DNA of 64,000 nt from Chitinivibrionales bacterium (lineage in GTDB: Bacteria > Fibrobacterota > Chitinivibrionia > Chitinivibrionales > WJKA01): the NCBI GenBank assembly GCA_014728295.1, contig WJLW01000024.1, positions 1 to 64,000 on the forward strand, in the 5' to 3' direction. The notes beneath the pieces were generated by a model. The model searched no databases and was not told the origin of the DNA. It worked only from the letters and a program-made list of their open reading frames with translations. Below are positions 25,431 through 45,038 of the stretch, in pieces; within the stretch, counting starts at the first letter, position 1, and every line of letters begins with the position of its first letter. A program made the translations under genes and the position numbers.

Positions 25431-28400
25431 CTAAAAATCTGCCCCCAGAGAAAAGTAGTTCCTCGGTTTGCCCACATATCGCTTCCAGTCGGTTTGCCAG
25501 GCCCGGTCAAAGCGCAGGATAAATATTCCTAAATTGGCGCGCAGGCCAAAGCCGACACCTCCGTAGATGTCTTGCGGCAGCGGCACGTATTCGTACTCGT
25601 CTTCGGCATTCCATGCGTTGCCTATATCGGCAAAAGCCACGCCATTGATATAGCGTATTTCAAAGGGTAGCGGCCAGGCTACCGAGATTTTGCGTATAAA
25701 AGGAAATCTGAATTCGGTGTTGAATACCGCATAGCGCGTGCCGATTTTTTCAAAGCGCTTCCAGCCTCTGAACGGAACAACGATTTCCGAATAAAAGGCA
25801 TAGTCGAGATTGCGTTGATAGTTGTCGTAGTCAATGTCTTTGGGGTCCAGAAAAAACAGCCAGTTTTCGCTTCCTCCCAGAAAGAATTTACGCGCCGGTG
25901 TTTCATCGCGCAAAGCAAGAGTTGCGCCTGCCGAAACTTTGTTGGCCCAGACGAACTTTTTTGCGAAATGAAAATACTTGCGAATGTCGAAATCTACTGA
26001 TATAAATGATGCATCTATTATGTCAAGTGGCGGTGAAAAATAGAGGTTTGCTTCGGATCTCAGACCATTAACCGGTCCGGTTATGCCCCAGAGAATGTTG
26101 TCGAATACCAGCGAAAATGAGGGGATGACAAGATTTTTGTCTTCGGCAGTACGGCTCGTATCGTTCTTGAAATCATATGAACCGGTAAGCTCTACCGGCT
26201 TGCGTTCGATACGGCTTCCGTACAGATTTAAATCTATGCGCGAGAACATATTAAACGGGTAGCTGAGCATAAGCAGACCGCCGTAATCGGTGTCGCGGTA
26301 AAGTGAATCACCGAAGAACAGACTGGTGGAAACAATGTCACGATTAAAAAATGCACCAAGTCCAACGTCGATGCGATTTTTCAAATAAATATAGGAGCCA
26401 TAAACGTGGGCGAACTGATCGATGCGTCCCTGCACATCACCGGCAAGCAGGATGCGATGATCTCCCATGATATCACTGAGCACGATTGCCCCCTGGCCGG
26501 AATAGTATAGACTGCTTATGCCTAATCCCACCGAAATCAAGTCGGGTGAAAATTTCAGTCGGTAGGGCGCCGAGGCGAGCTCGTCGTAGGAGGTAAATGC
26601 AGCAGAATCGGCAGCATCTTCTTCGGATTTTGCTGAATCGCTTGCGCCAAGATCGGCAACTTGCTCTGTTGTGTTGAGGGGCTCGTCGGCTTCGCCGATA
26701 AGTTCGATAGCCGTCGTATCCGCGACCGCAGTCGTATCGGATAATGTGGTTGCCGATGCTGTGTTTCGTTTCGTATTTTTTCCGCCGTCGCTCACCAGCG
26801 TGTCTTTGCCTGCGGCGGTATCTTTGCGGGCAAGCTCAGGATTAAAAAAGTAGGCGGTGCTGTCGCGCAGAAACACGGCCCAGTTGGTAAGTGTCAAGGC
26901 GTTGTCTTTGAGTTGCTTGAGCGGTTCTTCGATCAGACGGATATCCCAGCCCTGTTTTTGGAAATGGCAGAAAACCAGGCTGCCGTCTCCCTTGGACCAG
27001 TCTGGATCGGAGCTGCCGCCAATCATGTCGGTAAGCGGTCGGGCACTGTCGGGATGCGCAAACGGCGCAATGTAGATATTGTCAATGCCGTTAACGTCCG
27101 AGATAAAAGCGACATGATTTCCATCCGGGGAAAAACTCGGCTGCTTTTCGTGTTGCGGCGTCTGAAGAAAGGGAGTAATTGAACGCGAATTGACATCAAG
27201 CAGGTAGAGATCGTTGGATGGACGCCGGGCCGTAATATCCCGCCAACTGAATTTTCCGCTCGAATCAATCGCAGCATAGAGTAAGAACGACCCGTCGGGA
27301 GAAAACCGGGGCGATGATTCAAACGGCATCCCTTTGGTTAATTGCTCGATAGTGCCGGCCGATATGTCCCACATAAAAATATCGGTAGCAGTATCCTTGA
27401 CGCCGATAAAGGCAATCTTATCATCGCCCGGCGACCAGTCCGGGGAGAGGATTGCCTGCATATCGGGTGCAATAGTCGCGACCAGTTCCCTGGTTCCAAT
27501 GTTGACAATGCGGATTTCGTCTTTACCCTGGCGTTTGGTTATAAAGGCTATTTGATCGCTTTGGGGAGACCAGGCCAGGCCGCTGCGGAACGGTTTGAAT
27601 GATTCGAAATATCCGCCATAGCCGTATTGCTTGATTTCGTTGATCTTGCTCCCCTTGCGATCGGTGATAACGATTCTGGTGTAGTCTTTGCGGTCGGTAA
27701 AAAAGGCAATTTTCTCGCCGTCCGGAGAAATGCGGGGCTTGAGGTTGAAGTTGCTGCGATCTTCGGCTCTGTCGGTTATCGCTGTTGAGATCAAGTCGGG
27801 CTTGTCGCGCCGGCCGATTTCGGGCCAGTAAATTCGTTTGAGTTCCTGTACCCATTCTTTGCCCAGGTCTTCAAGTGGTTTTCCATAGGTAGACTTGAGC
27901 GCAGCTTCTATGGAACGGGTCTTTTTGAAATTACGCAGCAGGCGCTCGAATTTTTTCTCTCCTCTGGTATCTGCCAGAAAATGCAGGAATGATTGCCCCC
28001 CTTTGTAGGCCATGTATCCGCTCAGCTCAAAACCGGGCAGGGGAACGTAGTTGTAAACAGTGCGATCCATCAAAAACATATCTGCTTCTGCATTCCACCC
28101 GCTTGACAGGAACTCCGCACTCCCTTCGGCAAACCAGAGTGGAATCTGCATCGCCGTATTGCGCAGCAGCGCTCCACCGAAGTGGTCGTAGAGAATTCCG
28201 AATTGAAAAGCGTGTACCAGTTCGTGATGTGCCACATGCCGATATTCTTCGTACGAGCCGGTAAAAGGAACGACGACACGATTTTTAAACAGCTCGGTAA
28301 ACCCCCCTACACCTTCGGGGATAACCTCGGTGATAATATTGGTCTGCTGAAAAAGATTCGGGCTGCCGTATATAATAAAAGGTATCTTTTTGCGATGCTT

Positions 28401-28640
28401 GAATTTGAGATCCCGCTGCAGTTCCCGGTAGTATTGCTCAATCCATCCGGCCGTGAGGTGAGCAATGTTTTTTTCATTCTGATGAAAATAGATGTCAAAA
28501 TGCCTGGTTGAAATATATTCCCAGCTCAAGTCTTCGTATTGGACTTTGTTTTTGCCAAATGCTATAATAGGGGAAACAGCAACCAGAGCTAAGAATAGTG
28601 CCTGAATAAAGGTCATGACGTTGTTCAATGAAGATTTCAT
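25431..28640 (-). CDS. peptidase-MA-like / TolB propeller / outer-membrane barrel fusion protein
   Basis: A 1069-residue envelope protein with three parts. After a signal peptide (about 1-29) comes a gluzincin-like metallopeptidase domain with HELVH (139-143) and the third ligand in WFAEGSAE (Glu172). Residues about 250-560 contain repeated TolB/PD40 propeller blades (ARISPDGEKIAFFTD, PDWSPGDDKIAFIG, PRFSPDGSFLLYAA, PSFSPDGNHVAFIS). A Ser/Thr/Asp-rich low-complexity linker (about 640-710) leads to a C-terminal barrel of Omp85/surface-antigen D15 type ending YFSLGADF. The start at 28640 gives a good signal peptide; an upstream GTG/ATG would add 54 unlikely residues. Similar proteins occur in several didermic phyla, with no established function that I can name. 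Its C-terminus converges on guaA. Confidence 0.8.
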   Translation of the reverse strand: MKSSLNNVMTFIQALFLALVAVSPIIAFGKNKVQYEDLSWEYISTRHFDIYFHQNEKNIAHLTAGWIEQYYRELQRDLKFKHRKKIPFIIYGSPNLFQQTNIITEVIPEGVGGFTELFKNRVVVPFTGSYEEYRHVAHHELVHAFQFGILYDHFGGALLRNTAMQIPLWFAEGSAEFLSSGWNAEADMFLMDRTVYNYVPLPGFELSGYMAYKGGQSFLHFLADTRGEKKFERLLRNFKKTRSIEAALKSTYGKPLEDLGKEWVQELKRIYWPEIGRRDKPDLISTAITDRAEDRSNFNLKPRISPDGEKIAFFTDRKDYTRIVITDRKGSKINEIKQYGYGGYFESFKPFRSGLAWSPQSDQIAFITKRQGKDEIRIVNIGTRELVATIAPDMQAILSPDWSPGDDKIAFIGVKDTATDIFMWDISAGTIEQLTKGMPFESSPRFSPDGSFLLYAAIDSSGKFSWRDITARRPSNDLYLLDVNSRSITPFLQTPQHEKQPSFSPDGNHVAFISDVNGIDNIYIAPFAHPDSARPLTDMIGGSSDPDWSKGDGSLVFCHFQKQGWDIRLIEEPLKQLKDNALTLTNWAVFLRDSTAYFFNPELARKDTAAGKDTLVSDGGKNTKRNTASATTLSDTTAVADTTAIELIGEADEPLNTTEQVADLGASDSAKSEEDAADSAAFTSYDELASAPYRLKFSPDLISVGLGISSLYYSGQGAIVLSDIMGDHRILLAGDVQGRIDQFAHVYGSYIYLKNRIDVGLGAFFNRDIVSTSLFFGDSLYRDTDYGGLLMLSYPFNMFSRIDLNLYGSRIERKPVELTGSYDFKNDTSRTAEDKNLVIPSFSLVFDNILWGITGPVNGLRSEANLYFSPPLDIIDASFISVDFDIRKYFHFAKKFVWANKVSAGATLALRDETPARKFFLGGSENWLFFLDPKDIDYDNYQRNLDYAFYSEIVVPFRGWKRFEKIGTRYAVFNTEFRFPFIRKISVAWPLPFEIRYINGVAFADIGNAWNAEDEYEYVPLPQDIYGGVGFGLRANLGIFILRFDRAWQTDWKRYVGKPRNYFSLGADF

Positions 28641-29007
28641 GCAGAAGGCCCGTTGAGCATTTAACTTACATTTAAATTGAGACATGCATATAGTAATTAC
28701 GACTGTTTCAATTAGTTTGTTTTTGATTATATCATTAATGTTCAAGAAAGATAGTTTATGGCTTTTTCTTGCCGACGGTGGGTGCGGTGATACGCATTTC
28801 ACTAACGTAACAGTGAGTTAAAAGGCATGAAGCACTTGCAATTTGAGCGCAAAATATCTTTATAATGACAATGACGGGGGGAACACTTATATGTGCTTTT
28901 ACTTGACCTGCTGTTTTGACATAAGTATTTTGAGTAAAGCATTGTCTTTGCTTTATTTTACTTCGTTCTAGCGAGTGCAACCCTCAAAGTTTTATTCATT
29001 TAAACGG
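28641..29007. other. 367-base divergent intergenic region
   Basis: Region between the two envelope genes at 25431 (-) and 29008 (+). It is AT-rich, with one perfect TATAAT at 28861-28866 (see promoter) and TTGACA at 28916 without a convincing -10. No gene or repeat is seen. Confidence 0.5.
28836..28866 (+). promoter_or_regulatory. candidate promoter of the envelope cluster
   Basis: TTGCAA (28836-28841), a long 19-base spacer and a perfect TATAAT (28861-28866). It would start transcription about 135 bases before the beta-helix/OmpA gene. Spacer length makes it weak or activator-dependent. Confidence 0.35.
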
Positions 29008-30522
29008 ATGAGTATTGGGATGAACATCATACCTCCTAAGCAAGTTCCAATCCGGACGCTGGTAGTGATATTTCTATGTGTATTTTCCATTTTTGCAGGA
29101 CGCAAAATTGTCGTCCCGCACGATTTCCCCACCATACATACCGCCATCGGGGAGGCCGATGAAGGGGATACGGTTTATGTTCGCAAAGGAATCTATAAGG
29201 AAAATGTCGCCCTGGCCGATAATGTCGTGCTGGTCGGTCAGGATATGCTGGGAACGGTAATCCTGGGCAATCGTAAAGACCCCTGTGTTATCGGGGCGGA
29301 CGGCGCCGTCATCGCCAACTTTACAATCAGGAATGGCTCAACCGGAATTTTATGCAAAAACACACGGCCGATAATCGAGCGCAATCTTATCATTGACAAT
29401 AAGGGTACCGGTATTCACGCCGTCATTTCTTTGCCTGAAATCAACAACAATATTATTTATCGCAATGAATGGACGGGTATCTTTCTGGAATCTTCGCGCG
29501 GTACGCGCACATCAATTGACCACAACGTTATCGTAGAGAATGGCTATTCGGGAATTTTTTGCGCTCATCGAACCGAGGTTCTGATTCGCAATAATATCTT
29601 TGTGGGCAATAAGCAGTATTCGGTCTATGTCGGTCCGGGAGCTCGTAAAACCCGTATCATATACAATAATATATACCGCAACCGCCGTCCCTTTAATCCC
29701 GAAGCGGTTATCAACGAAACCAACATCTCCAAGGAGCCCCTTTTTATATCGGAAGGATATCCCGAATTCAACTATTTTGTCAAACCTGTTTCGGCCTGCA
29801 AAGGATCGGGCGAAAACGGCACCGACATCGGGCTGATAACCAAGCAGATGATCGAGGTCATGAGCACCGATAAAGATGGGGACGGCATTCTTGACGATAT
29901 AGATCAGTGTCCGGACGTTGCCGAAGACAGTGACGGCTTTGAAGATGAAGATGGGTGCCCGGATTATGACAACGATCAGGACGGTATTTATGACACCGAT
30001 GATGAGTGCCCCAATGAAGCCGAGGACCGGGATGGATTCCAGGATGTAGACGGCTGTCCGGATCTGGACAATGACAAGGACGGAATTCCGGATGTCGCCG
30101 ACGGCTGCCCGAATAATCCTGAATCAATCAACAAATACAAAGATGAGGACGGTTGCCCGGATGAAAAGCCGCAGGAAATCAGACAGAAACTGGTATTGCG
30201 GGGCGTCAACTTTAAAACCGCCAGTGCCGAATTGCTTGAAGAATCCTACTACGTGCTCGAAACTGTCTATAACAGCCTCGAGGCCTACCCGCACATCCGG
30301 GTTGAAATTGCCGGTCATACCGACAATCAGGGAAGCTCCGAATATAACATGGCGTTATCATACGACCGCGCCAAAGCTGTTCGCAATTATCTGGTCATGC
30401 GCGGCATTGCCGAAGACCGGATTATAGCCAGAGGGTACGGTGAAGAAAAACCCGAGGCTCCCAACGAAACAGCCGAGGGGCGCGCCAAGAACAGACGAGT
30501 TGAGGTTATTCCCATCAAATAA
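29008..30522 (+). CDS. beta-helix / thrombospondin type 3 / OmpA-domain protein
   Basis: A 504-residue exported protein with a hydrophobic signal (IRTLVVIFLCVFSIFAG). Residues about 30-270 form a right-handed parallel beta-helix of the NosD/DUF1565 type (IHTAIGEADEGDTVYVRKG, NGSTGILCKNTRPIIERNLI, ENGYSGIFCAHRTEVLIRNN). Residues about 285-390 are thrombospondin type 3 repeats with Ca-binding Asp runs (DKDGDGILDDIDQCPD, DNDQDGIYDTDDECPN, DNDKDGIPDVADGCPN). The C-terminal 110 residues are an OmpA peptidoglycan-binding domain (IAGHTDNQGSSEYNMALSYD, GYGEEKPEAPNETAEGRAKN). Likely anchored at peptidoglycan with the helix outside or in the periplasm. ATG at 29008 is preferred; GTG 28975 and ATG 29020 are alternatives. 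It leads the envelope cluster, 22 bases before the next gene. Confidence 0.85.
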   Translation: MSIGMNIIPPKQVPIRTLVVIFLCVFSIFAGRKIVVPHDFPTIHTAIGEADEGDTVYVRKGIYKENVALADNVVLVGQDMLGTVILGNRKDPCVIGADGAVIANFTIRNGSTGILCKNTRPIIERNLIIDNKGTGIHAVISLPEINNNIIYRNEWTGIFLESSRGTRTSIDHNVIVENGYSGIFCAHRTEVLIRNNIFVGNKQYSVYVGPGARKTRIIYNNIYRNRRPFNPEAVINETNISKEPLFISEGYPEFNYFVKPVSACKGSGENGTDIGLITKQMIEVMSTDKDGDGILDDIDQCPDVAEDSDGFEDEDGCPDYDNDQDGIYDTDDECPNEAEDRDGFQDVDGCPDLDNDKDGIPDVADGCPNNPESINKYKDEDGCPDEKPQEIRQKLVLRGVNFKTASAELLEESYYVLETVYNSLEAYPHIRVEIAGHTDNQGSSEYNMALSYDRAKAVRNYLVMRGIAEDRIIARGYGEEKPEAPNETAEGRAKNRRVEVIPIK

Positions 30523-30544
30523 TTCAGAATGAGGTCGGGTACCC

Positions 30545-32935
30545 GTGAAAATGAAACATTCTCCAAGTATCGCAAGCTCAATTAAACCGGTGTTCCTCAT
30601 TGCCGCTGTCGTCTTTTGTACTGCGTTCGTTGCACAGGGTCAACTCAAAGGCACCGGCGGCTACGATGCCCCGTATTTTCAGGCGGACTTTTATCAGGAT
30701 TTGACGGAATACAGCGCCGCACTGGTTAATCCCGCCTTGACCTATCGGGTAAACCAATATCATGTCAATATTGGTATCTATCGCTGGGAAGCCGGTGGCT
30801 GGGGATTTCAGCAATTGGCATTTCTGGCGCCAATCCGCAAAAACCACACAGCCGGCTTAACGCTTTTGTACGCCGGGGCTTCAATAGAGGAAACCCAAAT
30901 TACGGATAATTATCAGATCGTCACAACAAACGCCAAAGTTAATTATGGAGATGCGTGGATTATCGGTAATTACGGAATACGCCTCATGCCCTGGCTGATG
31001 CTGGGTACCAATATAAAATACCGTATACAAAATCAGTTTAACGACCTCAGGTTCAGCTCATTGCCGGGCTTTGACATCGGGGGCTATTTTAATCCGCTTG
31101 ATCACTATCGCTTCGGGGATCTGGGATTCAGCCTGAATCTGCAGGACATCATCCCCTCGCGTATTACCTGGGACTCCGACTCAACCTTCACATCTACAAC
31201 GCGTGGACGAGGCGGTATCCGCTATTCGGTTTTTAACGACCGGTTAATCGGCGCATTTGAAATTGTGATTGACAATGCTTTTGTGGATTTGTGGAATGCA
31301 TTCCTGGACCTTGACGGCGATGTTGATTCGCTGGGTAAAGAGGTTGACAATCTCGATCAATTGCGCAAGGAAGTACGTTACGGCGTACATGTCAAGTATC
31401 AATTCATTCCGCAGCTTTATCTCAAGGGCGGGTGGAACAATAACAATATCCCCTATCTTGGCATAAACATGAATATCATGTACCCGCTGCCTGAAATGAT
31501 CAATTATCTTGCTGCGGACATTCATCTGGGTTACAGTTTTCTGGAAAACATCGTCGATCAGACGAATGAGCGAGGTTTTACCTTCATGGGAAAATTTTCC
31601 GCTGATTTCGGTCCGACCCGCGAACAGCGTGAATCACAACGGCTGTACGACAAGCTCATTCTGGCTCCCATGAATGCGTATAACGAGGCTATGAAGCTCT
31701 ACCATGCCGGCAAGTACTGGGAAGCTGGTTTCGCATTCGGAAAGGTTATGACACTGTTCCCCAATTTTCACCTCAACGACAAAGCGTCCTATTATATGGG
31801 CAACAGCTACCGGTATCTTTACATGCACGACATTTCGCGTGAGGTCTATCAGGAAGCACTCGACAAATACTCAACTTCCGAAATGCGGCCGAGATATCTT
31901 TACGGTCTCATGAATATCGACTATCGTGAAGGTAAATACGACGATGCATTGAAGAACCATGCTTTCATTGTCAACCTTTATCCCGAAAGCGATATCAGAG
32001 CGGATGCCGATTATCTTGCCGGAGAAGTGCATTTCGCCCGCAAGAATTATCATGCGGCCGAACAGTTATTTGTACAAATCAAGCCTTCCGATCCGCCCTA
32101 TCTTTACGCTCAATATACCCTGGCGATCATTAACATAGAAAACAACAGGATTCAGGCTGCGCGTCAGAATCTGAAAACGATCGTCGAAGACACCACCCAG
32201 GATGAATCCAAGATTCTGCTGCTGGACGCCGCCAATACCAAGCTGGGCCATCTCTACTACGAAGAAGTTGAGCTTCGCCAGGCTGTAGAGTCGTATAAGC
32301 GGGTCACTCACCCAACTCCCTATGGCGATGAGGCTTTGCTTGGCATGTCCTGGTCATGGATCAAAGGTAATCAGCCGGAACAATGCATGTCGACGCTGAG
32401 ACCGCTCTTTTCGCTGTATCCTAATTCACCGCTTATTGCGGAAGCGCATCTATTGGCCGGCTATGCACAAATGCTCATGAAGAAGTACGCTCAGGCCGAA
32501 CAAAACCTGCAGAAATGCATATCCCTATGTGGCGGAGATTTTATTACCGATGAAGATTTGCAGGCCCGAACCCGGCAATTTGATGGTGTTGTCCGTGATT
32601 TTAAACCGACCGGTGATCGCATTAAAAAGAATGCCCTGCGGCGTCCGACGAATCAAACTATCGAAGAGCGGGCGGAACTAAAATCAGAGTATGATACATT
32701 TTCAGAAGAAAACACAAGCTATTTTAACTATACGTTGCTTGCCAAGTCTCACAAAAAGTTCCTGAGACGAGAAGAACAGATTCTGGAAGATGCTGAATAT
32801 GCATTGGCCAAAGTCGCAAGCATGTCCCAGGGCAAGACTGGTGCACGCGAAATCGAAAAAGAACGCAAAGAAGCAGAAGAAATAGATGAGGAAATCCAAA
32901 AGCTACAGCAGCAGTTGCAGGAATTCGAACAGTAA
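30545..32935 (+). CDS. outer-membrane barrel fused to TPR array and C-terminal coiled coil
   Basis: A 796-residue protein starting with GTG at 30545 (or ATG 30551), with a signal peptide (about 10-32, ending VAQGQ). Residues 35-350 look like a PorV/TraF-type outer-membrane barrel: alternating aromatic strands, early YSAALVNPALTYRV and a run such as AADIHLGYSFLENIVDQ. From about 365 to 690 there are TPR repeats (AMKLYHAGKYWEAGFAFGKV, LAGEVHFARKNYHAAEQLF, LAGYAQMLMKKYAQAEQNL). The last 60 residues are a Glu/Lys/Gln coiled coil. The combination suggests an outer-membrane anchor that presents TPR scaffolds to periplasmic partners such as the giant TPR protein downstream. No named family is recognised. 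Confidence 0.75.
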   Translation: MKMKHSPSIASSIKPVFLIAAVVFCTAFVAQGQLKGTGGYDAPYFQADFYQDLTEYSAALVNPALTYRVNQYHVNIGIYRWEAGGWGFQQLAFLAPIRKNHTAGLTLLYAGASIEETQITDNYQIVTTNAKVNYGDAWIIGNYGIRLMPWLMLGTNIKYRIQNQFNDLRFSSLPGFDIGGYFNPLDHYRFGDLGFSLNLQDIIPSRITWDSDSTFTSTTRGRGGIRYSVFNDRLIGAFEIVIDNAFVDLWNAFLDLDGDVDSLGKEVDNLDQLRKEVRYGVHVKYQFIPQLYLKGGWNNNNIPYLGINMNIMYPLPEMINYLAADIHLGYSFLENIVDQTNERGFTFMGKFSADFGPTREQRESQRLYDKLILAPMNAYNEAMKLYHAGKYWEAGFAFGKVMTLFPNFHLNDKASYYMGNSYRYLYMHDISREVYQEALDKYSTSEMRPRYLYGLMNIDYREGKYDDALKNHAFIVNLYPESDIRADADYLAGEVHFARKNYHAAEQLFVQIKPSDPPYLYAQYTLAIINIENNRIQAARQNLKTIVEDTTQDESKILLLDAANTKLGHLYYEEVELRQAVESYKRVTHPTPYGDEALLGMSWSWIKGNQPEQCMSTLRPLFSLYPNSPLIAEAHLLAGYAQMLMKKYAQAEQNLQKCISLCGGDFITDEDLQARTRQFDGVVRDFKPTGDRIKKNALRRPTNQTIEERAELKSEYDTFSEENTSYFNYTLLAKSHKKFLRREEQILEDAEYALAKVASMSQGKTGAREIEKERKEAEEIDEEIQKLQQQLQEFEQ

Positions 32936-33152
32936 TGTAATTTTACCGAAACAGCAATTCGGTGAGATTGCAAACAAATTGTTGATTATTTACCGCACTG
33001 GTATTTATATTTATTCCTGTTTGCCGTGTACCAACAGCATCCTACGAATAGCGATCCGGGTTTAAGCGAAAAAGAATAAGATCGCTATCCGCCCGGCAAA
33101 AACAGATTGACGTGATTAAACGAATAAACAAGCCCGAGGGAGAGGAAAATAA

Positions 33153-36100
33153 ATGCAGATACGTATTAAGTTAATCGTTTATGCTTTGTTAGCTTGTTTT
33201 GCGTTAACTGTCTCCACTCAGACAGTCTCAGCAGAAACTGCTGCAGAGCGCAAGAAAAGAGAACTTGAAGCAAAAATCAGAAAGCTTCAGGAACAAAAGC
33301 TCAAGCGACAAAAACAACAGCGTACATCGTCGGCCGCCGGTGAAGATCTAACAAAGATTCTTGCTCGCTATGAGAAACTGCTCGCCAGTTGTTCGGGTAA
33401 GAAAAGCGAACGGTGCGCCGATGTAATGTTTACGCTCGCTCAATTGTACTACGACCAGGCCCGCGATCATTTTGTTCAGGCGCGTAATTCGTACGAGAAA
33501 AAAATGGATGAATGGGAGCGGACACAGCGTGGCCCCGAGCCGATCAATCCTATTCCGGACTATTCAAAATCGCTTAATATGTACCGCCGTCTGGTTGTAG
33601 AATATCCCCAATTCAAACGCTCCGATGAGGCGAATTACCAGATCGGCAGCATTCTTTTGCTGGCAGGCGAAATGGACAGCTCTCGCATGGCATTCGAAAG
33701 TATTGTAAACAATTCTCCTGGAAGTGTCCGCGCTTCGGCGGCACATTTCCGGCTTGCCGATTTCTGCTACATGGATTTCGATCATGCCTGTGCACTCAAG
33801 CACCTCGAAAAAGTAAAGCGTGACGAAGTAAATATCGAGGTGTGGGAAATGGTCCACTACCGTAAGGCGGAATTGTACTATAACCGGGCTGAATTCGACC
33901 GGGCAATAGATTTGTTTTTCACTTACGTAGAACGATGCGACGCCGGCGAATATGTCAAACGTCAGTTCAGGGAAGAGGCGCTTGAGTTTATGGCCATCTC
34001 TTTTTCCGACATGGATGAGGGAGCAGCCGAGGCCATCAATTTTTTCAAGCGCAAAGGATCGCGCCCTTACGAAGCATACGTGATCTACACGATTGGTTTT
34101 AAAAACCGTGACCACGGTCAATTTGACGATGCGATCCTTGCCCTGACAACAGCTTTGCAAAACTATCCATTTTACAAAGATGCTCCAATCGCGCAGCATA
34201 AACTCGTAGAGTGCTATGTTGTGAAGAAAGAGCATGACAAGGCCAATGAAAACCGGATTAAGCTGGTTGACAATTACTGGGAAGGCAGTGAATGGTACTC
34301 AAAAAATTCTCAGGAACGGGCCATAATCGATCAGGCGAAAGTTTATGTAAAAAAAGCACTAAGCAACATCTGCATATTCTATCATGCTACAGCGCAGAAG
34401 AAAAAAGATCGCTCCGTTTATGAGAAAGCCCTGAAGCGCTACCTGGAATTCTTCAAAAAATTCCCCGGCGACAAGTGGAAGACCTATGAGTTCAAATACA
34501 ACGTCGCCGAAATATATAATGACCTGCAGATGTATGACAAAGCGGTTGAAAATTACTGGTTCATTGCGACTGAGGATCTTGGCAAATATCCCGACTTTCA
34601 GGTTGAAGATCCCGACAGTCTGCTCTATGACGACCCCAAAGAATACGAAGAGGCTAAGAAAAAGGCGCGCGAAAGCGGGCCCATGGCTATATCTCAGGCA
34701 GATGCAGGCTACAACGCTATTGTTGCCTTGAATAAGCTGCGCAAGAAAAGCATTGCGAAACAGGGGCTTGATGACAAGCAGGCCTACACCATGGCGGCCA
34801 CGAAGCAGATGCTTGATTACTGCAAATTGTACCGCGAGAAATTTCCCAAGCATGCGAATACGCCGGAAGTTATCTACCTTGCCGGCAATATCCACTATCT
34901 GGCGGATGCATGGGATAAAGCAGTTGCACAATTCCAGTTTATCGTCGATAACTTCCCTCAGGCTAAAATCGCCGACAATTCTTTTAGAATGCTGGCCAAG
35001 TCGTATTCCAGCGCGGGCGAATTTGACATGGCGCTGAAAAAGTATCAGGAATTGCTCTCACGCACTGATCCCAAGCTCCAGGATTATTTCGATATCCAGG
35101 ACCTTGCAGCAGGTACCATGTACAATAAGGCCGAGAAAATGCGCAAAGACGGCAATTACATGGGTGCTGCAGATGTATTCAGAAATATTCTCAGCTCGTT
35201 TCCCAAAAGCAAAATCGCCGATCGCGGCTGGTTTGAAGCGGGCGTGTGCTATGAAGATGCAAAAAGCTATGATCTGGCAGCTTCGGCATTTGAGCAATTA
35301 CCGGTCAAATTCACGAAATCGACATTGCGCGAGAAGTCTTTTGTACGCGCAGCCGAAAATTATAAGAAAATGAAAAAGTGGGAACTTGCCGCCGGCGCTT
35401 ACGCAAAAGGCGCTCAGGCGATTCCCAAAGCCGATTTTGCTATTCCCAGTCTCTCCTCCGCCGCGGACTGTTATGACTCGGCAGGCAATGCTGATATGGC
35501 CGGGAAAATGAATGAACTTATTTTCGAGCGCTATGCGGATGACTCGCGAGCACCGCAGGCATTGTATACCGCCGGCTACATCTACGAAAAAGGCAAAATT
35601 TATCACAAAGCTATCAAGGCCTATCTGCTGCTTTCCGAGAAGTATCCTAAATCCGAATTTTCGGAAGATGCAGGCTACTCAATCGGTATTTGCTATGAAA
35701 AACAGGACAAGTGGGCGGAAGCCGCCAATGCATTCATGGATTTTGCCAAGAAATTTGAAAATAAGGCGAAACAGGTTGAAGCACTTAAAAAGGCCGGCGA
35801 CGCTTACAAGAAGGTCAATGATATCAAGGGCGCTGAAAACGCGTACTTGAGTGCAACGACGTTGTACGAAAAATTTAAGAAAAAGGCCGAATTCAATATC
35901 GGCACTATTGCGAAAGCGTATGCGGAAGTTGGCGCCATTTACCAGAAAGAATATGCATCTGTCAAGTTGACCGGCCGCAGAGAAAGAGATGTAAAAAAGC
36001 AGGTAAAGGAAAAAGAAAAGGCGCTTAAGAAGGTGCTTGAGCAATATGCAAAAGCCATTGAAACCGGTGTTGAAGACGCTGTGCTAAAATCAACCTGGCT

Positions 36101-36803
36101 AATTGGTCAGGCGTATGTTGACTTTGCCGAGGCGCTGGCGAATCAAAAGCTGTTTGGTTCGCAGGAGCAGCGTATCGCATCGCGCATCAGAATCGTTTCA
36201 AGCCTTGAAAAATATTATGATAAAGCCCAGGAGAAATTTTACTGGAATATCAACAAAGCGCGCGAACAGAATCTCACGGGTGAGTATATTGATAGATCAA
36301 TAGAGTCCTTCATGGAAATGGCATATCGCAAGGGCCGTTTGTTTGAAATGGTAGGAGAAATTTTTGCGGGTGCCCCCATTCCACGCGGGCTGGCTCCGGA
36401 AGAAGAACGCGCCTATAAAGAAATTCTGGAAGAGAAGAAACTGGAAGCAATGGATAAATCTCTTCCTAAATATATCGGCGCAATGAAAGCCGCCTCAGAT
36501 TTAGGTATTGCCAAAAGCTCCTATCTCGACAGTATTCGCAGCCGGATCAGCATAATCGATCCAACCTCGGAGTGGCTGACCAAGGAGATCACTGCCTGGA
36601 CGCCGGATGCGTCGCCTGAAGCGAATGCAGCCACGGTTGAGGAAGGCGAAGTAAGCAAGTCTGTGGCTAAGGCTGAAGAGGCCCCGTCCAACGAGACGCG
36701 CGCTGATCCTACTAAAATGCATAATGAAATGAAAGATGAGCCTGACGATGATTCTGGTGAAAAAAAGAAGGAACGGCGCAAGAAAAGAAGGAAACGCAGA
36801 TAA
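33153..36803 (+). CDS. giant periplasmic TPR protein
   Basis: A 1216-residue exported protein: signal peptide about 1-27 (cleavage near VSA-ET), Lys/Gln-rich coiled coil (about 30-62), then TPR repeats along nearly the entire chain. Examples are YNRAEFDRAIDLFFTYVERC, YIGS-type starts as ANYQIGSILLLAGEMDSSRM, VAEIYNDLQMYDKAVENYW, SYSSAGEFDMALKKYQELL and AGYIYEKGKIYHKAIKAYLL. It ends in an acidic then strongly basic tail (DDDSGEKKKERRKKRRKRR). Length and architecture resemble the large TPR proteins associated with TolQ/TolR motors in Myxococcus gliding clusters (GltD/GltE-like), a comparison by architecture only. It is followed by the TolQ-TolR-TolR-TonB-like genes and probably links the motor to outer components. 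Confidence 0.8.
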   Translation: MQIRIKLIVYALLACFALTVSTQTVSAETAAERKKRELEAKIRKLQEQKLKRQKQQRTSSAAGEDLTKILARYEKLLASCSGKKSERCADVMFTLAQLYYDQARDHFVQARNSYEKKMDEWERTQRGPEPINPIPDYSKSLNMYRRLVVEYPQFKRSDEANYQIGSILLLAGEMDSSRMAFESIVNNSPGSVRASAAHFRLADFCYMDFDHACALKHLEKVKRDEVNIEVWEMVHYRKAELYYNRAEFDRAIDLFFTYVERCDAGEYVKRQFREEALEFMAISFSDMDEGAAEAINFFKRKGSRPYEAYVIYTIGFKNRDHGQFDDAILALTTALQNYPFYKDAPIAQHKLVECYVVKKEHDKANENRIKLVDNYWEGSEWYSKNSQERAIIDQAKVYVKKALSNICIFYHATAQKKKDRSVYEKALKRYLEFFKKFPGDKWKTYEFKYNVAEIYNDLQMYDKAVENYWFIATEDLGKYPDFQVEDPDSLLYDDPKEYEEAKKKARESGPMAISQADAGYNAIVALNKLRKKSIAKQGLDDKQAYTMAATKQMLDYCKLYREKFPKHANTPEVIYLAGNIHYLADAWDKAVAQFQFIVDNFPQAKIADNSFRMLAKSYSSAGEFDMALKKYQELLSRTDPKLQDYFDIQDLAAGTMYNKAEKMRKDGNYMGAADVFRNILSSFPKSKIADRGWFEAGVCYEDAKSYDLAASAFEQLPVKFTKSTLREKSFVRAAENYKKMKKWELAAGAYAKGAQAIPKADFAIPSLSSAADCYDSAGNADMAGKMNELIFERYADDSRAPQALYTAGYIYEKGKIYHKAIKAYLLLSEKYPKSEFSEDAGYSIGICYEKQDKWAEAANAFMDFAKKFENKAKQVEALKKAGDAYKKVNDIKGAENAYLSATTLYEKFKKKAEFNIGTIAKAYAEVGAIYQKEYASVKLTGRRERDVKKQVKEKEKALKKVLEQYAKAIETGVEDAVLKSTWLIGQAYVDFAEALANQKLFGSQEQRIASRIRIVSSLEKYYDKAQEKFYWNINKAREQNLTGEYIDRSIESFMEMAYRKGRLFEMVGEIFAGAPIPRGLAPEEERAYKEILEEKKLEAMDKSLPKYIGAMKAASDLGIAKSSYLDSIRSRISIIDPTSEWLTKEITAWTPDASPEANAATVEEGEVSKSVAKAEEAPSNETRADPTKMHNEMKDEPDDDSGEKKKERRKKRRKRR

Positions 36804-36990
36804 AAAGCATCTTTTTTCACATATTTCCGGTAGCAGTCACCGATAACTCGGAAAGGAGCGCGCGGACTGAGGAGCAAAAAGATATGCTTTAAGTACACAA
36901 TAAACCGTTTTGTCGCTTTAACTTTTTACTGCATGAAAAAAATTGTAACAAACACAATATTCAAACCGTTTTCCGTGAAAGGAGTTGAGG

Positions 36991-37611
36991 ATGCTAAAGT
37001 TCATCGTTGATGGTTTCAGATCACCTGGTTCATGGGTTATGTGGATCATCCTGTTACTTGCATTCGTCATCCTGGGTCTTATTATCGAGAGAGTCTGGTA
37101 CCTGTTTCTTAAGTGCGGTACCGGAACAGGAACTTTTATGTCAGGAATCGCCAAATATCTTAAAGCTGGCGATTATGAGAAAGCTATTAAGTATGCAACC
37201 TCTGTTAAGACGCCTTTGGCTAAAGGTGTAACGGCTATTCTGGAAAACCGTGGCAAAAGTGCAAAAGCGGTACAGAAGGCAATTGACGAGGTATTCTTGA
37301 CGGAAACCCCGAAGATCGGGCGTTTCATTCCGATTTTGAATACGCTTGCCAACCTTTCAACGCTCCTTGGTCTGACGGGTACCATCCTGGGCCTTATGAT
37401 CGCCTTTGACGCTGTTGCCAATGTTCCTGCAGCACAAAGAGCTCAGGCGCTTGCTACCGGTATTTCGGTTGCTATGTCAACCACGCTTTTTGGACTTATC
37501 GTAGCCGTTCCCACCATGCTGGCCCATGGTCTTATCAGTGCAAAGTCTGATTCAGTCATCGAAGAGATGGATGAGAAGACTGCGAAACTCGTTAACTTAA
37601 TAGAAGAGTAA
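36991..37611 (+). CDS. MotA/TolQ/ExbB proton channel subunit
   Basis: A 206-residue inner-membrane subunit of a proton-driven motor. TM1 is about 12-34 (MWIILLLAFVILGLIIERVW), followed by the cytoplasmic loop with FLTETPKIGRFIPILNTLAN. TM2 has STLLGLTGTILGLMIAFDAV and TM3 has ATGISVAMSTTLFGLIVAVP, the two conserved ExbB/TolQ segments with the pore-lining Thr/Ser residues. ATG at 36991 has AAAGGAG 6-7 bases upstream; a TTG two codons earlier is less likely. It is followed by two TolR/ExbD genes, which with it should make a TolQ-TolR-type stator. Whether it powers TonB-like transport, Tol-like constriction or motility cannot be told from this protein. Confidence 0.93.
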   Translation: MLKFIVDGFRSPGSWVMWIILLLAFVILGLIIERVWYLFLKCGTGTGTFMSGIAKYLKAGDYEKAIKYATSVKTPLAKGVTAILENRGKSAKAVQKAIDEVFLTETPKIGRFIPILNTLANLSTLLGLTGTILGLMIAFDAVANVPAAQRAQALATGISVAMSTTLFGLIVAVPTMLAHGLISAKSDSVIEEMDEKTAKLVNLIEE

Positions 37612-37639
37612 TAATCAAAGAATAACAAGGATTGTTGGA

Positions 37640-38431
37640 ATGGCAGCAAAGAAGAAGCTTGCAGCGGATGTAAAAGAGCTCAACCTGCAGCCGTTTATGT
37701 GTCTGATGGTTGTGCTTATTCCAATGCTTTTATTGTCGGCTGAGTTTGCTAAAATAGCGATTATCGATCTGAAATTGCCGGAAGCCCGCGGTTCGCAAAC
37801 GCAAAAGACAGTAAAGAAACGTAAGCAGGAAGAAGAAAACAAGTTGTTGCTTACTGCCATAATAACAGACTCTGTTTTAACTCTTGGCGCAAAAGGTGGT
37901 TTCCTGCCCTCGCTCTTTTACAAAGAATTCCACAAATACATTGCAAAAGATGACGGTACGGAGACCATTGTTCCTTTTGATCCTTCTTCCGAAGAAAAGC
38001 CAAAGCATCCCAAAACGGGAAGACCGCTTGATATTTACGAGCGCTATGATATTCTGCTGTATGCCTGTGATCAGGAATTTCAGAATATCAAAAAAGTGCT
38101 CTATACAAATTATGGCGAAATGTTGACCGATGCTCAGAACAAGCCTGTAGAGGAAGTATCGGTTGGCGATTCCGTATATGCTTTGAGCAATCCTCGAAGA
38201 TTGATTGTTGTTAAGGACCCTTCTGAGTTTTCGCTCAAGAGCATGTCTGTATATGATGAGCTACGCAACAGACTTATGAATGTAAAGGAACGGTTCAAAG
38301 AGGCCGACGATGGGGATGATATCATCATCGCGGCCGAGAATGAAGTCTTGTATGATAAGATTATCCAGATTATGGATGCAGCAAGACTTGCCGATTTCCC
38401 CAACATCTCAATAGCGAAGCTAAGAGGTTAA
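37640..38431 (+). CDS. ExbD/TolR-family protein lacking the membrane aspartate
   Basis: A 263-residue single-TM protein of the ExbD/TolR family. The N-terminal motif, normally NxxPLxDxxLxLLIIF, reads NLQPFMCLMVVLIPMLLL here, so the proton-carrying Asp is replaced by Cys21; a proline also lies in the TM (LIP). The periplasmic part has a long insertion compared with ExbD (about 141 residues); after it the typical final block DIIIAAENEVLYDKIIQIMD appears, equivalent to the ExbD KVxIxAD...Yxxvxxvmd segment. It should assemble with the channel protein upstream but cannot itself carry the proton. The next gene is a second TolR with the Asp. The two probably act as a heteromeric pair. Confidence 0.85.
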   Translation: MAAKKKLAADVKELNLQPFMCLMVVLIPMLLLSAEFAKIAIIDLKLPEARGSQTQKTVKKRKQEEENKLLLTAIITDSVLTLGAKGGFLPSLFYKEFHKYIAKDDGTETIVPFDPSSEEKPKHPKTGRPLDIYERYDILLYACDQEFQNIKKVLYTNYGEMLTDAQNKPVEEVSVGDSVYALSNPRRLIVVKDPSEFSLKSMSVYDELRNRLMNVKERFKEADDGDDIIIAAENEVLYDKIIQIMDAARLADFPNISIAKLRG

Positions 38432-38432
38432 T

Positions 38433-38936
38433 ATGCCTAAAAAACGTGGAAGATATGTAAAAGGTCCCAAACGCGAAGGCTTGCAAATCACTTCCATGAT
38501 GGACATGTTTACCATTATTCTAGTCTTTCTTCTCAAGCAGTTTTCTGCAGAGGGAAAAATCTTGACCAACGCGGACAATCTGGTGCTTCCCAACTCTTCT
38601 TCTAAAAAGAAGCCGAAGGATGTAACGCTCCAGATTGCGGTAACCAATGACATGATCCTGGTTGATAATGCACCGGTTGTGCCGACTCAGATTATGCGTG
38701 ATATCCCACAGGAGAACATGGACCAGTCAGATCCCAAGCTGGTTCAGACGCTTGCTGAGAATTTTGCGCAAGAAGAAGAGATGGTACGACTCGGCGCCCT
38801 TAACAAGGTTGAGGGCAAGGTCGTGATCCAGGTAGACAAGAATATGGAATTCGATGTTCTTTATAAAGTGATGAATTCATGCGGCAAAGTAGGATATAAT
38901 AATATGAACTTTGCAGTTATGGAAAGAGAAGGTTGA
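38433..38936 (+). CDS. ExbD/TolR-family protein with conserved aspartate
   Basis: A 167-residue ExbD/TolR protein, start one base after the preceding stop. The TM motif is LQITSMMDMFTIILVFLLK, in which Asp24 occupies the conserved proton-binding position; the usual Pro two residues into the motif is Ser. The periplasmic domain carries DVTLQIAVTNDMILVDN, an extra acidic insertion (about 95-125), and the closing block GKVVIQVDKNMEFDVLYKVM, the recognised end of ExbD/TolR. It follows an Asp-less paralogue and overlaps the ribosome site of the TonB-like gene. In Agl-Glt and Tol systems pairs of TolR-like subunits also occur; here the two seem to have divided their tasks. Confidence 0.9.
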   Translation: MPKKRGRYVKGPKREGLQITSMMDMFTIILVFLLKQFSAEGKILTNADNLVLPNSSSKKKPKDVTLQIAVTNDMILVDNAPVVPTQIMRDIPQENMDQSDPKLVQTLAENFAQEEEMVRLGALNKVEGKVVIQVDKNMEFDVLYKVMNSCGKVGYNNMNFAVMEREG

Positions 38937-38938
38937 GC

Positions 38939-40324
38939 GTGAAATATAAAGTTTTAATTCAAAAATGCTCAGAACCCGAACGAGCTGCGAAAATTGCCGA
39001 AGAAGTTGCCAAGCTCTCCGGAAGCAGTGTCGCTGTTGTAATAGCGGCTATTGTGCAAAAAACAGTCTGTATTAAAAAAGAGGCTGAGGAAAGCGAAGCG
39101 CAGCGACTGAAGCAACAATTCGAAGCCGTGGGCGCTGAGGTGATTTTAGAAGAACTCGATATTCCTGAAGAAAAACCTGTTGCGGCACCTGCTCCGCCAG
39201 CGGCACCGGTTGCTGCAGCAGCAACAACTGCAAGCGCGCAGCCTCCGCCACAACCGGCGGCTCCTCAGCAGCCGGCAGCAGCTTCGCCAAAATCATACGA
39301 TGATGATGAGTATGATGAAGACGAAGAACCGGGCCGCATACGCAGTCCTGAAGAATATTCTGAAATATTGAAAACGCGTAACGATATTTTTATTGTCGAT
39401 CGCAGCAAAAAGATTCATGTTATTCAGGCGATCTGTTTTGTCTGCGCCCTGGTTGCCGGGTTCGTATTGAATACCTATGAATATGCCGATGTAGCAACAG
39501 ATTTTTTCGAAAAGATCCCCGAAGAGCGTGTCGCCAAGTTGGTTAAAGATCTTCCCGAAACACTTCAGAAGAAAAAAGAAGATGAAAAGAAGGAAGATAT
39601 TAAAACCGATAAGAAAAAGCTCAAGCCGAAAAAGAAGAAAGGCGCGGGCGGTCGTACCGGTGGTGGCGGGGATCCTCGCGCTCGGGTCACGCGCAAAGGC
39701 GTGCTCGGTATTATTTCCGGTCAGATCAAAGGAAAAACCGTTGCGTCTGCAGATGTATTCGGTAAAGGCGGATTCGCTTCCGGCATCGATGCTATTTTGC
39801 AGGGTGTCGGCGGATTGAAAGCAGGCGGCAGCGGGGGTGTCGGGCGCAAAGGCGCAGCCGGTATCGGTTACGGAGCCGGCTACGGAAGCGGTTTCGGCGG
39901 TGGCGGCGGTGGTATTGACGACCTCATCGGCGGCCTGATGGGTGGCGATGACGGCAGTGCGCTTGGCTTAAAAAAGCGCGGCAGCCTGAAAATCTCCGCT
40001 CCCAAGTTTGTTAAGGGTGGAGCCTTGACAGGCGGTAGAAGTATGGCCAGCATTCGCCGTGTTGTTATGCAGAACCTGGCGGCACTGAGGTATGCGTACA
40101 ACAAGCGCTTGAGAGAAAAACCTGGACTTAAGGGAAAGATAACTGTAAAATGGGCTATTGATGAATTTGGTAAAGTCATTTTTGCCCAGGTTGTTTCATC
40201 CACAATCAAAGATTCCCAATTGGAAGCTACGGTTGTCAGCAAGATTAAACGCTGGGCATTTGGAAAAATCGATAAACCCGGAGATGTTACGGAAGTCGTT
40301 TATCCATTTGTTTTCTCTCAATAG
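38939..40324 (+). CDS. TonB-like protein with L7/L12-like N-terminus and AgmX/PglI C-terminal domain
   Basis: A 461-residue protein. Residues 2-71 resemble the C-terminal domain of ribosomal protein L7/L12 (YKVLIQKCSEPERAAKIAEE, then EAQRLKQQFEAVGAEVIL). A Pro/Ala-rich linker and an acidic patch (120-131) lead to one TM (about 159-178, HVIQAICFVCALVAGFVL). After it come Lys/Glu-rich and Gly-rich stretches that could span the periplasm. Residues about 368-458 match the AgmX/PglI C-terminal domain (SIRRVVMQNLAALRYAYNKR, GKITVKWAIDEFGKVIFAQV, KIKRWAFGKI, VVYPFVF), a TonB-C-like fold. GTG at 38939 has GAAGG upstream. It should transduce force from the TolQ/TolR stator to outer-membrane partners. 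Confidence 0.85.
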   Translation: MKYKVLIQKCSEPERAAKIAEEVAKLSGSSVAVVIAAIVQKTVCIKKEAEESEAQRLKQQFEAVGAEVILEELDIPEEKPVAAPAPPAAPVAAAATTASAQPPPQPAAPQQPAAASPKSYDDDEYDEDEEPGRIRSPEEYSEILKTRNDIFIVDRSKKIHVIQAICFVCALVAGFVLNTYEYADVATDFFEKIPEERVAKLVKDLPETLQKKKEDEKKEDIKTDKKKLKPKKKKGAGGRTGGGGDPRARVTRKGVLGIISGQIKGKTVASADVFGKGGFASGIDAILQGVGGLKAGGSGGVGRKGAAGIGYGAGYGSGFGGGGGGIDDLIGGLMGGDDGSALGLKKRGSLKISAPKFVKGGALTGGRSMASIRRVVMQNLAALRYAYNKRLREKPGLKGKITVKWAIDEFGKVIFAQVVSSTIKDSQLEATVVSKIKRWAFGKIDKPGDVTEVVYPFVFSQ

Positions 40325-40390
40325 TTTTAAGTATATTACTGAGTGCACTTAAAAACAGGTCCTTTCCAACTTTACATGGGGGAGATGTAC

Positions 40391-41632
40391 ATGAGGAGAA
40401 CCCTTGTATGCCTTGTTATTGGTTTAGTAGGATTGGTTGCTCATCTTAATGCAACTGATTCCCGTATTATTGCGCTAGGTCGGCATGATAATTTCTTCAT
40501 GGATGACTACAGCATTTTTCGTAATCCTGCTAATATCAGCATCTACCCTAATTTACTTATAGGATCGGGTGGATACTTTGCGCAGGAAGATGATCCCGAA
40601 GAGCTTCAAAATACCGCTAATCCTGCACTCAAGCGAGTAAACAGAGATCCTGTCAGCCCATATGCCGGGGGGATCATTTCTTATTCGTTCAATCAGTCAA
40701 CCGAAAGTGGCAGTCAGTATCCCATGTTCTCGATTGGCGCCGTTTTTAATCGGTATGATCGGTTTATGGACTATTTGCTGCAGGATACCGAAGAATTCGC
40801 AGAAGCCTTTAGGGAAGATAGTGCGCTGATATTGCCTACTCCGGTCGGCAAATTCGATGTCCTTGCCGGCTGGGCTTTGAAGAACGGGTCGATGTTTGGC
40901 GTAGGAGCGTACCTTGCTTTTCAAAAAGAAAGCTACGGCACCCTTCCCAAAGAAATCGAATCAAGTCTTTTCCGCTTGAATCTTGGCGCAAATATTCCCG
41001 TGGCTCAAGCTATTGATTTTGAAGCATCGCTTGGGGTGGGCGGCATGAATTTGATAGGTGTAGATACGTCTGGCGGCACTCAGCAAATAAAAACCCTGGC
41101 CGACATCGGTGAAAGCGATTTTATTTTGAATGCAGACTTGCGTCTGTTCTCTGCGCTGGCGAGTATCAATGGAGAATTTGTCCCGCATTTCGGTTTGACC
41201 TACATAGATATTACCCAGTATGATATGTTTGAAGCCGAGTTCGGGTTGGGCGCCACGATCAACATAGATAAAGGATTTGGCTGGGCCGGACTTGACATTA
41301 TCTATTTGCAGGAAGATAATGACGGTATTGGCGGCAGAATTAGCTTCGGATTGGAGAGAAATCTGCTCTGGGACTGGTTTTTGTTAAGAGCAGGTGTTTC
41401 AAAGAAGCTTATGTTTGTCGAAACAGCCGACGGCGATGGAAAATGGATCGAAAATGCCGAAGCGGATGCTTCTGATGATGACTTTCTGGGAATTGGCATT
41501 GGATTCAATGTTGAAAATCGCCTGAAGATCGATTGTGTTATCGCCGAAGATGTCTTTTATACCTTCACCAACCTGATTTCAGCACCTCAGCATCATTTGC
41601 TGACGCGATTTTCAATCTCCTACAGTTTCTAG
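40391..41632 (+). CDS. outer-membrane beta-barrel protein
   Basis: A 413-residue exported barrel. ATG at 40391 follows GGGGGAGA and gives a clean signal peptide (about 1-21, ending LNATDS). The mature part begins ALGRHDNFFMDDYSIFRNPA, a PorV/PorQ-type start in which an early NPA follows a Tyr-rich stretch, then alternating aromatic strands such as PMFSIGAVFNRYDRFM and AGWALKNGSMFGVGAYLAF. The end HHLLTRFSISYSF closes with the terminal Phe favoured by barrel insertion. It is the last gene of the motor operon before a strong terminator, so it is a candidate outer-membrane partner of the TonB-like protein; substrate unknown. Confidence 0.8.
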   Translation: MRRTLVCLVIGLVGLVAHLNATDSRIIALGRHDNFFMDDYSIFRNPANISIYPNLLIGSGGYFAQEDDPEELQNTANPALKRVNRDPVSPYAGGIISYSFNQSTESGSQYPMFSIGAVFNRYDRFMDYLLQDTEEFAEAFREDSALILPTPVGKFDVLAGWALKNGSMFGVGAYLAFQKESYGTLPKEIESSLFRLNLGANIPVAQAIDFEASLGVGGMNLIGVDTSGGTQQIKTLADIGESDFILNADLRLFSALASINGEFVPHFGLTYIDITQYDMFEAEFGLGATINIDKGFGWAGLDIIYLQEDNDGIGGRISFGLERNLLWDWFLLRAGVSKKLMFVETADGDGKWIENAEADASDDDFLGIGIGFNVENRLKIDCVIAEDVFYTFTNLISAPQHHLLTRFSISYSF

Positions 41633-41659: not shown

Positions 41660-41689
41660 GGCGAGTGATATCGGTCACTCGCCTTTTTT
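41660..41689 (+). terminator. rho-independent terminator of the motor operon
   Basis: A perfect 9-bp stem GGCGAGTGA / TCACTCGCC with loop TATCGG is followed by six Ts, 28 bases after the barrel stop. Confidence 0.92.
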
Positions 41690-41801
41690 ATTGTGCAAAG
41701 GGATGAAAAAAGCTCAGAGAAAATAGTATCTTATAGTGTTCTTAGAGCCAAAAATGATTATAAATGCCACCCATAAAACTTAATTGTGCAGGAGGAGGAG
41801 T

Positions 41802-43262: not shown

Positions 43263-43281
43263 CCGAAAACCTTGACACCCA

Positions 43282-44175: not shown

Positions 44176-44177
44176 AC

Positions 44178-45023: not shown

Positions 45024-45038
45024 CAGACGTAATAAATC

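Follow-up and report, generated by a model that had tools for sequence, protein, structure and literature searches.

A Fibrobacterota gene cluster for a putative envelope-spanning motor with two unequal ExbD proteins and a PopA-type outer end

What is a putative proton-driven TolQ/ExbD motor doing beside large periplasmic and outer-membrane proteins, and what would it mean for such a motor if only one of its two ExbD proteins kept the proton-carrying aspartate (Asp)? These questions are raised by a gene cluster at 29008-41632 of a 64,000-nucleotide stretch of DNA, called here the window, from the draft genome of a Chitinivibrionales bacterium (GCA_014728295.1, contig WJLW01000024.1, positions 1 to 64,000). 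We find that the cluster is of the same type as FSU_2396-2404 of Fibrobacter succinogenes S85 in gene content and order, and the sequences argue that its two ExbD proteins, ExbD1 and ExbD2, are not equivalent. As a gene cluster it is therefore not unprecedented, being known in Fibrobacter; as a motor with unequal ExbDs and a PopA-type outer end it is new as far as our searches show. Our preferred reading, to which we give a probability of about 0.42, is an envelope-spanning proton motor with one Asp-bearing ExbD, likely pulling on a surface complex that holds and sheds fibre-digesting enzymes.

The cluster and its published counterpart

Eight co-directional genes followed by a strong terminator-like hairpin make up the cluster, and two codons within it matter for what follows:

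29008..30522, + strand: right-handed beta-helix (PF13229, 2.9e-14), TSP3 repeats and C-terminal OmpA domain (PF00691, 1.1e-22); ortholog FSU_2396; syntenic in relatives
30545..32935, + strand: N-terminal outer-membrane-barrel-like region, then tetratricopeptide (TPR) repeats (TPR families); ortholog FSU_2397
33153..36803, + strand: giant TPR protein, 1216 amino acids (TPR_6, 1.7e-19; YbgF-type TPR, 125 bits); ortholog FSU_2398
36991..37611, + strand: TolQ/ExbB-type stator ring subunit (PF01618, MotA_ExbB, 9.3e-24); ortholog FSU_2400
37640..38431, + strand: ExbD1, TolR-type, 263 amino acids, enlarged periplasmic domain, without the membrane Asp (ExbD family, 3e-11); ortholog FSU_2401
37700..37702, + strand: codon for Cys21 of ExbD1, which in the alignment of ExbD1 rows takes the place of the proton-carrying Asp
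38433..38936, + strand: ExbD2, TolR-type, 167 amino acids, with the membrane Asp (PF02472, 3.5e-16); ortholog FSU_2402
38502..38504, + strand: codon of Asp24 of ExbD2, conserved across ExbD2 rows
38939..40324, + strand: GltG/AgmX-like transducer, or arm (NF033768, 85 bits against a cut-off of 40); ortholog FSU_2403
40391..41632, + strand: PopA-type outer-membrane barrel, by fold; ortholog FSU_2404 by place and family
41660..41683, + strand: strong intrinsic-terminator-like hairpin, 3' of the cluster

The intergenic gaps are, in order, 22, 217, 187, 28, 1, 2 and 66 bp. A preliminary description of this locus had named the six genes from 33153 to 40391, which the last five gaps separate, as a TPR protein, TolQ, two TolR-type proteins, a protein with an AgmX/PglI C-terminal domain and an outer-membrane barrel, ending at a strong terminator. 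All are present, on the + strand, and the family matches bear the assignments out; the barrel has no Pfam match yet is PopA-type by fold. The complete machine from inner to outer membrane that it described, in which a TolQ/ExbD stator is paired with an arm of the GltG/AgmX type, is supported, and we consider this anatomy very likely to be correct.

Several products can be described further. The first gene as called begins at GTG 28975, ATG 29008 being an alternative start; its TSP_3 match lies slightly under the cut-off, and the product is probably an outer-membrane anchor that binds peptidoglycan. The N-terminal region of the 30545 product reads as an outer-membrane barrel, and the giant TPR protein, which has a signal-peptide-like start, is probably periplasmic. 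TolQ carries T135 and T169, which we take to be the TolQ/ExbB channel threonines; T135 is present in 38/38 aligned TolQ-type sequences and T169 in 97% of these 38. From its N-terminus, the arm consists of a probably cytoplasmic domain, a single membrane helix, a charged and Gly-rich stretch, and the AgmX/PglI domain at 40043-40318.

The match with the published cluster rests on locus L082, from a genome that we take as a near relative of F. succinogenes. L082 contains all eight genes in order, and with the start codon freely chosen seven of its product masses fall within 0.05 kDa of those published for FSU_2396, 2397, 2398, 2400, 2401, 2402 and 2403; from this match we infer that the family labelled f8 in our set is Fibrobacteraceae. 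The preliminary description had missed both this identity and the non-equivalence of the two ExbDs. The S85 cluster has the same genes in the same order, with no difference in kind, although an additional N-terminal domain in the window arm is absent from the f8 loci read. This domain (38939-39180) weakly resembles the C-terminal domain of L7/L12 and occurs in the near relatives read, not in those of f8, f9 and f10.

The host draft genome (5.29 Mb, 98.8% complete, 6.4% contamination) carries the window on a 99 kb contig, and in one scan of genome contigs the closest named relatives of the window TolQ were Chitinispirillia and Chitinivibrionales metagenome-assembled genomes of Fibrobacterota. 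Synteny was read, with profiles built from near relatives, in 12 loci from this TolQ scan and in 20 loci from 20 phylum genomes, the latter chosen by a match to ExbD1 and representing eight families (f1, f2, f3, f4, f5, f8, f9 and f10); L034 and L080 denote a single locus. The order TPR-TolQ-ExbD1-ExbD2-GltG is kept on one strand in 20/20 fetched loci, with ExbD1 immediately before ExbD2 in every one, so that the gene grouping is beyond chance. Both the synteny and the AgmX/PglI match on which the preliminary description had staked its proposal exist. (At the contig start, L091 has only a stub of the TPR part, and its barrel is split in two, as is the GltG gene of L075.) Thirty loci hold the core, the 20 fetched and 10 from the TolQ scan, and seven of them end upstream at a contig edge. 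The OmpA and barrel-TPR genes are both present, in order, in 18 of the other 23 and both absent in five (L032, L039 and the three f2 loci L073, L074 and L075); the genes at 29008 and 30545, which had been offered as possible members, thus belong.

Across the phylum, a protein search with ExbD1 matched 135 of 150 genomes. Some of the weak matches, that in G025 on reading among them, belong to sister cassettes, and the genomes with a window-type cassette are therefore fewer than 135/150. When the 15 non-matching and six weak genomes were searched again with G018 as control, only G018 exceeded 100 bits. In G088 a contig end truncates the cassette, and other absences may likewise stem from draft gaps; G022 (98% complete) and G099 gave no ExbD1 match in the protein search, and G082, G089, G091, G035 and G025 contain only sister cassettes on reading. 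Five loci of genus g32 in family f10 (L138, L139, L140, L143 and L145) carry a sister TolQ-ExbD1-ExbD2-GltG cassette around which no TPR, OmpA or barrel was matched; in-frame readings give Asn in its ExbD1 and Asp in its ExbD2. On the 3.9 kb contig L040, TolQ is followed directly by a PopA-like barrel, and no ExbD was found on that contig.

Two neighbours of the cluster deserve mention. The first lies upstream:

25431..28802, - strand: divergent gene for a protein with peptidase-MA, TolB-like propeller and Omp85-type barrel parts, by family matches

It adjoins the cluster in 7/32 related loci, L034 and L080 both counted, and its membership is uncertain. Past the terminator, 41784-46163 holds genes for a sugar-type ABC transporter, whose solute-binding protein was recognised by Pfam and whose permeases and ATPase were read from the sequence; this is apparently a separate unit.

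Two ExbD proteins and one membrane aspartate

The membrane Asp is absent in 33/33 ExbD1 rows and present in 34/34 ExbD2 rows. The ExbD1 rows include the window, the host-genome paralogs L023 and L024 and a Cloacimonadota row, L041, and the ExbD2 rows also include L022; because L034 and L080 coincide, the distinct rows number 32 and 33. The residue is likewise found in 0 of 120 listed ExbD1 homologs (the best 120 of 432, query included; one is incomplete) and in 0 of 120 sister-type homologs (the best 120 of 482, query included). In the host genome, TolR, the TonB-type ExbD and both ExbDs of another two-ExbD cassette, on contig C34, keep the Asp. A tree of ExbD proteins, which carries a long-branch warning, supports D1 at 98/94 and D2 at 100/100 and fits a single ancient ExbD1/ExbD2 split, common to the Cloacimonadota cassette. 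In the accessible parts of the published accounts of FSU_2396-2404, the asymmetry is not mentioned.

In a sister cassette of four genomes, the Asp-less ExbD is fused to TolQ:

L022:9429-10736, - strand: TolQ-ExbD fusion
L132:2548-3864, - strand: TolQ-ExbD fusion
L133:1692-2999: TolQ-ExbD fusion
L134:1922-3214: TolQ-ExbD fusion

A separate Asp-bearing ExbD2 was read in three of these four cassettes, L134 having been searched by a narrow motif only.

With Asp missing from ExbD1 and kept in ExbD2, the stator is predicted to be a heterodimer that has a single proton site, a prediction to which we give roughly even odds. The TolQ ring would enclose one ExbD1 and one ExbD2, protons would cross only via Asp24 of ExbD2, and ExbD1, with its enlarged periplasmic domain, would be the fixed member of an asymmetric pair. 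An alternative is that two copies of ExbD2 form the axle and that ExbD1 is no motor subunit, acting instead as a separate accessory that binds the wall or the arm. The missing Asp and the large periplasmic insertion of ExbD1 would suit such a role. However, ExbD1 keeps a membrane helix and a TolR-like fold and directly precedes ExbD2 in all fetched loci, and its homolog in the sister cassette is fused to TolQ. We consider this alternative doubtful and favour the 1:1 heterodimer.

The outer end and the likely output

At the outer end of the cluster, the fold of the 40391 product is that of a PopA barrel, and its score against the PopA sequence model NF053618 is 34.5 bits, under the cut-off of 150; we therefore call it PopA-type by fold, not a family member by sequence. 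FSU_2404 has been predicted to be a hexamer of the PopA family (PMC12228718), and a term search of that paper found neither ExbD nor AgmX. In our set the barrel gene lies beside the TolQ/ExbD motor in 17/20 fetched loci. The PopA superfamily is described as one of lipid-trapping outer-membrane proteins; here a protein of the PopA type lies next to an energy source, an arrangement that is new as far as our searches show.

What the motor would act on is suggested by work on F. succinogenes. Proteins of the cluster are up 1.2-1.73 fold on cellulose (PMC6851124; PMC4619616). FSU_2401, 2402 and 2403 are listed as found on cellulose only, as is FSU_2396, with the caveat that Fisuc_1891, maybe the same gene, has glucose counts (PMC4619616). 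A vesicle complex that includes cellulases is reported to contain FSU_2396 and 2397 (PMC6851124; PMC4619616), and eight highly expressed genes, FSU_2396 to FSU_2404, have been named as having a possible role in vesicle formation (PMC8092306). Cellulose induction, together with two products in vesicles with cellulases, makes local outer-membrane pulling, remodelling or blebbing the likely output. In our preferred reading, the GltG-like arm would take the stroke from the stator and pass it through the two TPR proteins to the OmpA anchor and the PopA-type barrel, which would thereby bear load, and the enzyme complex would be positioned and released on insoluble polysaccharide. We hold this output, the positioning and shedding of a fibre-degrading surface complex, tentatively and at somewhat less than even odds.

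Several points weigh against this reading. The links to cellulose and vesicles come from a single species, in which they consist of co-migration and of changes in expression that are modest in size. The barrel gene was not found in three of the 20 fetched loci (L084, L087 and L089), and where it occurs in the window its match to PopA is one of fold, with the sequence score given above. Several fairly complete phylum genomes are without the cassette by search, and it is thus not obligatory. That ExbD1 and ExbD2 share one ring or axle, at a 1:1 stoichiometry, is our deduction, as are the direction of force and the output; ExbD1 could be a non-motor anchor, and force, proton flow and phenotype are predictions.

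The only mechanism proposed in the accessible accounts of the published cluster is TonB-type import: from the cellulose induction, FSU_2400-2403 were suggested to energise cellodextrin uptake (PMC6851124). However, separate TonB-type clusters occur in the host genome and in two f8 genomes, the window proteins reach 15.8 bits with TonB_C (cut-off 24.6) and 24.2 bits with TIGR01352 (cut-off 27.1), and the barrel of the cluster is PopA-type by fold. We therefore regard an import system of this kind as very unlikely.

The cassette also raises the question of what drives type IX secretion in Fibrobacterota. SprA was found in 100/100 phylum genomes (99 over cut-off) and GldM over cut-off in 0/100, with a model run without a positive-control genome bearing a type IX system; the one GldM match, at E 0.004, contains stops. 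The host genome has SprA at C12:24315-29279 (L097; an open frame of 2143 amino acids) and 58 matches to type IX secretion tails, 55 of them over cut-off; GldM has no credible match there, and GldL, searched in this genome only, has a partial match below cut-off. The gene directly before SprA (L096:12878-14002) matches the FGE-sulfatase family at 47 bits. Since an FGE-sulfatase fold is reported for PorK (PMC12421860), its product is a candidate PorK-like protein. Few other stators are available in G032 (one contig, f8), where MotA/TolQ/ExbB matches are confined to two pairs of TonB type, a further one next to TolA-like, TolB and Pal genes, and the window-type cassette. The distribution of SprA and GldM and the few stators of G032 make the cassette a candidate type IX motor, a substitute for GldLM, and two of its products are reported in a complex with cellulases, some of which bear a type IX tail. 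However, SprA is present without a window-type cassette, by search, in G022, G099, G082, G089, G091, G035 and G025, the stators of G022 reading as two TonB-type clusters plus one next to TolB. In the host genome, SprA is on a different contig from the cluster, and its neighbours, as far as they were read, include no stator gene. The C34 cassette, whose two ExbDs both carry Asp and which lies next to a protein resembling the C-terminal part of PorZ, is a competitor. With SprA genomes lacking the cassette and a GldM model without a positive control, we keep a type IX role as a rival, and an unlikely one. In the same C34 region (L021, C34:50000-69000), beside TolQ, the two Asp-keeping ExbDs and the protein that matches the C-terminal part of the PorZ model, we observed a 1280-amino-acid TPR protein that scores 86 bits, under cut-off, with the PorW/SprE model.

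A bolder version would make the cassette a new class of mechanical ring motor, in which an obligate ExbD1/ExbD2 heterodimer has one proton site per stator and takes a one-sided step or pull per proton, is coupled to a lipid-trapping PopA oligomer and, in most Fibrobacterota, replaces the missing GldLM to drive the type IX surface machinery. We think it improbable that all of this holds.

Comparison with known motors

In the host genome, MotA/TolQ/ExbB is matched ten times, and six AgmX domains exceed the cut-off. Its stator neighbourhoods include a Tol-Pal cluster (TolQ, TolR, TolA-like, TolB, Pal and YbgF-like), a TonB-type cluster and flagellar MotA/MotB, and the window cluster is accordingly apart from Tol and TonB, as had been proposed, and from the flagellar motor; four other two-ExbD cassettes (C34, C47, C69 and C133) are also present. 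The flagellar genes with MotA/MotB lie at L029, on host contig C22, in a draft with an estimated contamination of 6.4%. A solitary 178-amino-acid AgmX-domain protein at L026:8699-9235, on host contig C128, is 58% identical to the window arm over 101 residues, and no stator match was found in the 18 kb read around it.

The stator families of the cluster are shared with Tol-Pal and TonB-ExbBD, from which the window cluster differs in having two unequal ExbDs. The equivalog models fall far short of their cut-offs for the window proteins: TolQ 56.5/221 and TolR 33/127 bits for Tol-Pal; ExbB 34/135 and 28/206 and ExbD 25/123 bits for the TonB type. A duplicate Tol-Pal-like machine serving outer-membrane stability could account for TolQ and TolR, OmpA, the YbgF-like TPR parts and the TolB-like divergent neighbour. 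However, a Tol-Pal cluster lies elsewhere in the host genome, Tol-Pal genes were also read in G032 and G018, and no TolA family was matched among the window cluster proteins. We consider such a duplicate very unlikely.

The cluster also has an architectural likeness to AglRQS-Glt of Myxococcus, which shares one TolQ, two TolR/ExbD proteins, an AgmX/PglI-type transducer, TPR proteins and an outer-membrane barrel. The preliminary description had drawn this parallel, which holds for the AgmX/PglI domain and the TPR proteins and not for membership of the gliding apparatus: the Glt equivalog models give 111/650 bits for GltG, 46/450 for GltJ and 22/450 for GltC with the window proteins, to which this comparison was confined. 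A motor of this kind would move adhesion complexes and carry the cell along fibres. TolQ with two ExbDs and a GltG/AgmX arm follows the AglRQS-GltG plan, and a 2011 gliding study listed an AglRQS/GltC-D-E-G core in one Fibrobacteres member. However, GltC and GltG score far under their cut-offs, the host genome has flagellar genes, and the F. succinogenes genome paper states that motility has not been demonstrated, which also tells against the motility suggested earlier. We consider gliding or surface motility unlikely.

Besides these scores, the window cluster departs from AglRQS-Glt in its ExbDs and in other parts. AglQ and AglS are both described as Asp-bearing, whereas in the window cluster Asp is on ExbD2 only, and OmpA-helix and PopA parts are found here instead. 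The unequal ExbDs bear on whether AglRQS and other systems with two ExbDs function as heterodimers, a point that a review describes as unknown (PMC9389320). GldLM (PorLM) is also an inner-membrane proton motor that acts on the outer membrane, but it is built from other protein families. In models of 5:2 motors such as MotAB, the two proton sites are taken to be equivalent; the pairing of one Asp-bearing with one Asp-less partner, kept across the phylum in several paralogous cassettes, offers a natural test of whether one site suffices.

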